Part shown: piece after piece, positions 26,317 to 43,468 of the stretch
How positions within the stretch are numbered: position 1 is the first letter of the stretch
Layout of the letters: every line of letters begins with the position of its first letter
Assembly: GCF_008124715.1 (NCBI RefSeq)
Contig: NZ_VNHO01000016.1
Coordinates: 1-53,082 of the forward strand
Length of the DNA stretch: 53,082 bases
Direction of reading: 5' to 3'
From: Thermosediminibacter litoriperuensis
GTDB lineage: Bacteria > Bacillota > Thermosediminibacteria > Thermosediminibacterales > Thermosediminibacteraceae
The notes under the pieces: model-generated
Told to the model about the DNA's origin: nothing
The model's input: only the letters and a program-made list of their open reading frames with translations
The model's database searches: none
Position numbers and translations under genes: made by a program

Positions 26317-26907
26317 CTAAACCCGTCCCACATTATGCCATTCACGGGAGATCCCTTTGTCACCCGGCTGCCAGTTGGCTGGTGCGCCAAGACCGGTTTT
26401 TTCCGTAAACTGCAGGGCCTGGAAGATCCGGATCAATTCGTATATGTTCCTGCCGACCGGTCCCGGATAGACTGAGTAGTACTCGATGATCCCCGAGGGA
26501 TTTATTATAAATGTAGCCCTGGGAGCCGTACCCTCCATTACATCAAGTACCCCGTACATCCTGCTTATTTTGTGGTTTCGATCGGATATAAGAGGGTACT
26601 GTACCTTCCGGGCCGAAGGTGAAATCTCAGCGAAAACTTTGTGGGCGTAAATGCTGTCGGTACTGATGGCCAGCACTTCGACGCCCAGGCGCCTGAATTG
26701 GTCGTAAGAAGCGGCCACGGCCGCAAGTTCTGTAGGTCACACGAAGGTGAAGTCCGAAGAGTAAAAGAAAAGCATTACCCACTGGCCTCTGTAGTCGGAA
26801 AGTCTTACCGTAATACGATTCCCCCTGCAGTAAGCCTGGGCCTCAAAATCAGGGGCCGGATCTCCCCGCTGCAGGCAGTGCTTCGAGGTGTATAGGGCAC
26901 TTTCCAT
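26317..26907 (-). CDS. prxU: Selenocysteine peroxiredoxin (in-frame UGA read as Sec)
   Basis: 196 residues if the UGA at 26739-26737 is decoded as selenocysteine. ATG 26907 follows GAGAGGAGTGAG. The frame is open from 26907 to the UGA and on to a TAA at 26317. The sequence around it, SDFTFV-Sec-PTEL, places Sec (residue 57) exactly at the peroxidatic Cys of AhpC-type peroxiredoxins. The Thr of PTEL and the catalytic Arg (TAPRATFIINPSG) are intact. A hairpin lies immediately downstream (SECIS-like). The usual resolving-Cys motif VCPANW reads GAPANW, so the C-terminal resolving Cys is absent; Cys11 and Cys27 are the only cysteines. It reduces peroxides; a related enzyme, PrxU, is known from Eubacterium acidaminophilum. 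Confidence 0.93.
26707..26731 (-). promoter_or_regulatory. Bacterial SECIS-like hairpin in prxU
   Basis: On the minus strand, five nt after the UGA codon, AGAA pairs with TTCT and GCGGC with GCCGC, closing a CGUG tetraloop; a CTT bulge lies on the 5' side. The loop falls about 18-21 nt after UGA, within the range required for SelB-dependent Sec insertion in bacteria. The sequence also codes for PTELAAVAAS. Confidence 0.8.
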
Positions 26908-27017: not shown

Positions 27018-27416
27018 TTACTCTTCAAAATCGATCCGCAGCGAATTTTCCCAGAGGCCGTGGATGTTGCAGTAGCTCAGAGCCATCAATGTGCCTGGTT
27101 TTTCGAGAACCACGCTGGTATGCACGCAGGGGTTACACTTGGCTGAACCTTTATTAGGCCCTTCCACGGATTCGGCGTGGGCTTCAAACTGGTAAGTCCC
27201 CAGATGAATCGTGAATTTTTCTCCGTCGGGCTGATAAAAGAGTTTTATCCACCTGATGTGGTGTTCCGTTGTGTTCGGGTGGGGAATTTCCTTGCCTACG
27301 CAGAGGTGGACGTCAACGGGTTGGCCTTTCTTTACAGGTTCATTAACCTCTATGACGGGGACGTGCTTTTCTTTCTTCCAGTCGTCTTTCTGAAGATGAT
27401 TGGCTAAGGACTCCAT
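27018..27416 (-). CDS. sor: Superoxide reductase (neelaredoxin, single-iron class)
   Basis: 132 residues. It reduces superoxide to hydrogen peroxide without releasing oxygen, the strategy of anaerobes. The iron ligands are visible: Glu16 and His18 in EKHVPVIE, His46 and His52 in IPHPNTTEHH, and Cys116 and His119 in YCNIHGLW. There is no N-terminal desulforedoxin iron domain. An additional CNPC pair (94-97) is not part of the iron site. ATG 27416 follows AAGGGGGAAC. It is upstream of the Sec peroxiredoxin, which would destroy the peroxide formed, and has its own palindromic operator candidate upstream. Confidence 0.94.
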   Translation of the reverse strand: MESLANHLQKDDWKKEKHVPVIEVNEPVKKGQPVDVHLCVGKEIPHPNTTEHHIRWIKLFYQPDGEKFTIHLGTYQFEAHAESVEGPNKGSAKCNPCVHTSVVLEKPGTLMALSYCNIHGLWENSLRIDFEE

Positions 27417-43367: not shown

Positions 43368-43385
43368 ATATATCGCATAAATAAA

Positions 43386-43468
43386 AAGGTGATGGAGCTC
43401 ACCGAAACTGCCTTTCAGGCTAATAGCTCCTGCAATATCGCCGGATATTGTAGGAGCTTAATTTTTTC
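43386..43468 (+). promoter_or_regulatory. Fluoride riboswitch (crcB motif) with intrinsic terminator
   Basis: The aptamer begins AGGTGATGGAGCTCACC (43387-43403): GGUG pairs with CACC. It continues with GAAACTGCC, a short loop, AGGC, and TAATAGCTCCTGC at 43421-43433. These match the fluoride (crcB) motif order GGNGAUGG, UUCNCC-like, AACCGCC and GAU-CUCCU. GGAGC (43394-43398) can pair with GCTCC (43426-43430) as the pseudoknot. The same GCTCC lies in the 5' arm of a 15-bp terminator hairpin (43425-43439 with 43444-43458) followed by TAATTTTTT. Fluoride binding should therefore prevent termination and switch the downstream genes on. Confidence 0.9.

Follow-up and report, generated by a model that had tools for sequence, protein, structure and literature searches.

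The window analysed here is a stretch of 53,082 nucleotides from Thermosediminibacter litoriperuensis. When its DNA is translated, a peroxiredoxin frame on the minus strand is open from start to stop across one UGA only (Table 1). GAGGAG, a ribosome-binding-like sequence, is found just 5' of the ATG. A first-pass annotation of this DNA had proposed a selenocysteine (Sec) peroxiredoxin read through the UGA, and translation returned exactly the strand, the coordinates, the UGA position and the length that it gave. It also anticipated that only a truncated product would be called. The open reading frame listing (table 11) indeed contains a 133-residue frame at 26317-26718, beginning at a GTG past the UGA, and this is all that a table-11 caller would report from the gene.

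Table 1. Features of the Sec-peroxiredoxin locus, in window positions.
Feature	Position	Strand	Details
Sec-peroxiredoxin gene	26317..26907	minus	ATG at 26907, TAG at 26319-26317; 196 residues, Sec57
In-frame UGA	26737..26739	minus	Peroxidatic position of the PxxxTxxC motif; aligned with the invariant Cys of Cys homologues
Predicted SECIS hairpin	26707..26731	minus	Inner stem, loop CGUG, weaker outer stem AGAA/UUCU; synonymous-site covariation
Desulfoferrodoxin gene	27018..27416	minus	Superoxide-reductase type; upstream neighbour; PF01880, 3.3e-31

The upstream neighbour encodes a desulfoferrodoxin. Since H2O2 is the product of superoxide reduction, the two genes may plausibly act together in oxidative stress, a putative functional link. 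An operon was considered and rejected, since the pairing is not conserved (no desulfoferrodoxin relative was found beside the homologues at the loci examined) and a hairpin lies between the genes. This hairpin, recognized by eye, is GC-rich and followed by a T-rich tail; it was not listed by the terminator scan. When long frames linked by a single UGA were scanned for, no convincing case of another selenoprotein gene, as judged by eye, emerged elsewhere in the window. A fluoride riboswitch (RF01734, 53 bits) is present at 43379-43439 on the plus strand.

The read-through protein contains the AhpC-TSA domain at residues 15-143 (PF00578, 3.6e-38) and the 1-cysPrx_C domain at residues 164-186, and also matches the Redoxin domain. 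When the protein is aligned with homologues, the UGA coincides with the peroxidatic cysteine (FTFV-U-PTE), within an AhpC-TSA domain that is full, in agreement with the position assigned to Sec in the first-pass annotation. An in-frame UGA opposite the catalytic Cys of homologues is one mark of a bacterial selenoprotein. The motif of Sec-peroxiredoxins has been given as T/SxxU, in the form PxxxTxxU (PMC13188914), and the window protein combines TxxU with the AhpC-TSA domain. Its residue at the Pro position of PxxxTxxU is S (SSDFTFVU); near relatives have A, G, S or P there. An AlphaFold2 model of the read-through protein, built with the proteins of the window and of related loci as input, has a mean pLDDT of 89, and the nearest solved structures are AhpC and Prx1/Prx2, with TM values of about 0.87-0.89. 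The minus-strand gene is confirmed as one for an AhpC/Prx1-type peroxiredoxin, in which the apparent stop is predicted to encode Sec.

The C-terminal resolving cysteine that defines typical 2-Cys peroxiredoxins is absent from the window protein, which has LGAPANW where others have VCPANW in the alignment. The same position, read by eye, is without cysteine in all 40 of the other Sec sequences. The protein is best described as a 1-Sec enzyme because this residue is missing. In PrxU of Eubacterium acidaminophilum, the second cysteine is reportedly replaced by Ala, according to the 2001 paper of Sohling et al. Peroxiredoxins with non-peroxidase roles exist, and the lost resolving cysteine would also suit a protein that receives Sec and acts as a redox sensor or chaperone instead of a peroxide scavenger. 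Against such a role, the active-site motif keeps its Thr, the conserved Arg residues are likewise retained, and the product of the upstream desulfoferrodoxin gene would make H2O2. A sensor or chaperone is accordingly improbable.

Many relatives have the same UGA. Scanning genome contigs brought up four close relatives with 56-65% identity (from Bacillales UBA6259, Bacillota DeMMO6_24 and two Neobacillus), and all carry TGA at the peroxidatic codon. A search for homologues also covered about 400 genomes of the phylum. Among the matches listed, all those down to an E value of 2.9e-46 have the in-frame TGA and those lacking it occur only below; every match of at least 49% identity has UGA at the peroxidatic site. 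In total, 41 collected sequences, the window's included, have UGA at this codon. In a maximum-likelihood tree of 68 sequences, the window protein belongs to a 15-member Sec clade (support 100/98). Apart from it stands a second Sec clade of 26 sequences, also supported at 100/98, referred to here as the PrxU clade.

The first-pass annotation had pointed to a SECIS-like hairpin 5 nt past the UGA, and it is there that the outer stem starts. The inner stem comprises 5 bp (26724-26720/26715-26711) and closes a 4-nt loop at 26719-26716; the spacing from UGA to loop is 17 nt and the MFE is -9.1 to -9.7 kcal/mol. The bSECIS model of a 2026 review (PMC13188914) describes a loop of 3-9 nt with G within the first two loop places, mostly an N1-N2 pair around G[G/U], a stem of 4-16 bp, a distance of 16-37 nt from the UGA and an MFE of -7.5 or lower. 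The window hairpin agrees with it in loop, flanking pair, stem, spacing and MFE. Its folding energy is not unusual, being equalled or bettered by 28 of 200 shuffles, and of 83 Cys homologues, 25 have a broadly similar hairpin 3' of the Cys codon.

Covariation was assessed in the 35 UGA homologues with GU at the equivalent place, the six others without GU there being left out. The bases flanking the loop GU (+18 and +21, counted from the UGA) are C-G in six sequences, A-U in 22 and G-C in seven, with no mismatch; Watson-Crick pairing is therefore complete (35/35), against 16.3 expected under independence. At +15 and +24, 34 of the 35 sequences have a standard pair. The tree requires a minimum of five changes for +18/+21 and of eight for +15/+24. 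In the window, each of +15, +18 and +24 falls on the third base of an Ala codon, and +21 on that of a Val codon. As these are synonymous positions, the protein does not dictate them. Restricted to the clade of the window, the analysis gives a covariation score of 0.395, compared with 0.147 for shuffled data; none of 500 shuffles reaches it, and the score collapses when the stem partner is slid. This covariation at synonymous sites is strong evidence, drawn from sequence comparison, that the hairpin would serve as a SECIS element, while energy alone is weak evidence. A limited literature search on contacts between SelB and the SECIS loop found nothing.

A nonsense mutation cutting short an ordinary cysteine peroxiredoxin has to be weighed here, as UGA is formally a stop and the 133-residue downstream frame could begin at its GTG. 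Such a pseudogene is, however, difficult to reconcile with a single interruption exactly on the peroxidatic codon, repeated throughout the window's clade (15 of 15 sequences) and again in the separate PrxU clade, or with a hairpin covarying at synonymous sites. The protein past the UGA is fully conserved in the alignment, and it is this conservation together with that of the UGA that refutes decay, leaving it a negligible probability.

The host assembly (2.34 Mb, 98.9% complete) contains the genes for Sec incorporation that the first-pass annotation had predicted, all above curated cut-offs in profile searches. selA (614 bits, cut-off 268) is directly upstream of selB (377.5 bits, cut-off 242), and selC, the tRNA-Sec with anticodon UCA, is just downstream of selB (79.2 bits, gathering 47). 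selD (390 bits, cut-off 125) is located apart from these three. The complete set marks the organism as a bacterial selenoprotein host and disposes of the concern that Sec machinery might be missing. The host selD has an in-frame UGA of its own, and we take it to be the known Sec-containing SelD type. A sequencing or assembly error turning TGC or TGT into TGA, conceivable only as a general possibility, is refuted by TGA at the same codon in independent genomes, sits badly with the complete machinery and is hardly credible.

With a probability of about 0.96, the locus is read here as encoding a selenoprotein, a 1-Sec peroxiredoxin, with SECIS/SelB-driven insertion of Sec57 and predicted peroxide reduction. 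SelA and SelD would make Sec-tRNA(Sec), and host SelB would bind the hairpin past the UGA and deliver it. The ribosome would then put Sec57 at the UGA and complete the protein. Within the Prx1/AhpC fold, where the conserved Pro, Thr and Arg accompany it, Sec57 is predicted to reduce H2O2 or organic peroxides and to be converted to a selenenic acid. Reduction of this acid would need an outside thiol, because there is no C-terminal resolving cysteine. Thioredoxin is the most likely candidate since a thioredoxin reductase gene is found in the genome (417 bits, cut-off 343). The protein's own Cys11 or Cys27 would be less likely reductants. The window protein and those of loci L002-L005, L123, L124 and L128 have an N-terminal Cys, whereas those of L103, L122, L125, L126 and L130 lack one, start codons being uncertain. 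Cys11 was rejected as a general resolving residue, as an N-terminal Cys is not clade-wide; at most it might be accessory.

Sec peroxiredoxins are an established family, represented by PrxU of E. acidaminophilum (reference 83 of PMC13188914), and 12 of them, with five Cys-to-Sec events, were counted in 2006 (PMC1794560). The class has been known since 2001 (Sohling et al., doi 10.1515/BC.2001.123), and the window gene is a further member, from a different clade than PrxU. It shares with PrxU the Sec at the peroxidatic Cys and a Prx1/AhpC-type fold, but lacks the VWKxW-like C-terminal tail and the 3-residue insertion of the PrxU clade. Against the equivalog model NF040737 (peroxi_PrxU, NCBIfam), the window protein scores 191 bits, under the cut-off of 270, so its exact function is not guaranteed by the family. 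Six scored members of its clade, itself included, reach 159-191 bits, whereas four of the PrxU clade reach 342-405. With AhpC and typical 2-Cys peroxiredoxins (TIGR03137, PF00578) it has the fold and active-site residues in common, but bears Sec for Cys and lacks the resolving Cys of VCPANW. It resembles 1-Cys peroxiredoxins of the Prx6 type in the missing C-terminal resolving cysteine and the predicted outside reductant, yet its best matches in sequence and fold are Prx1/AhpC types.

Both clades are represented in the genus. The one other congeneric genome searched has the PrxU-clade type (L105), and the window's genome has only the other; this split suggests horizontal transfer or differential loss. 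Genome G367 has both types (L129 and a second match), so that they can coexist as paralogues. A subgroup of the PrxU clade (L110, L111, L112, L132, L134, L140-L146) is extended at the N-terminus by about 37 residues, which carry a conserved EFKxGCxRP-like motif whose Cys could, judging from the sequence, be an alternative resolving residue. The node bearing on a single Sec origin for both clades has support of 32/76. It is a tentative and somewhat doubtful idea that the window's clade forms a separate subfamily with its own Sec origin or its own reductant, missed by curated models; if so, its members may be reported as truncated proteins. A limited literature search found no paper naming this clade.

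The missing resolving cysteine and the distinction from the curated PrxU family go beyond the first-pass annotation. The reading given here corrects an annotation that could otherwise appear as a truncated protein, and brings out a well-supported clade of Sec-peroxiredoxins in Bacillota scoring below the curated PrxU cut-off. The covariation of the hairpin at synonymous sites offers clean computational evidence for a SECIS element within coding sequence.
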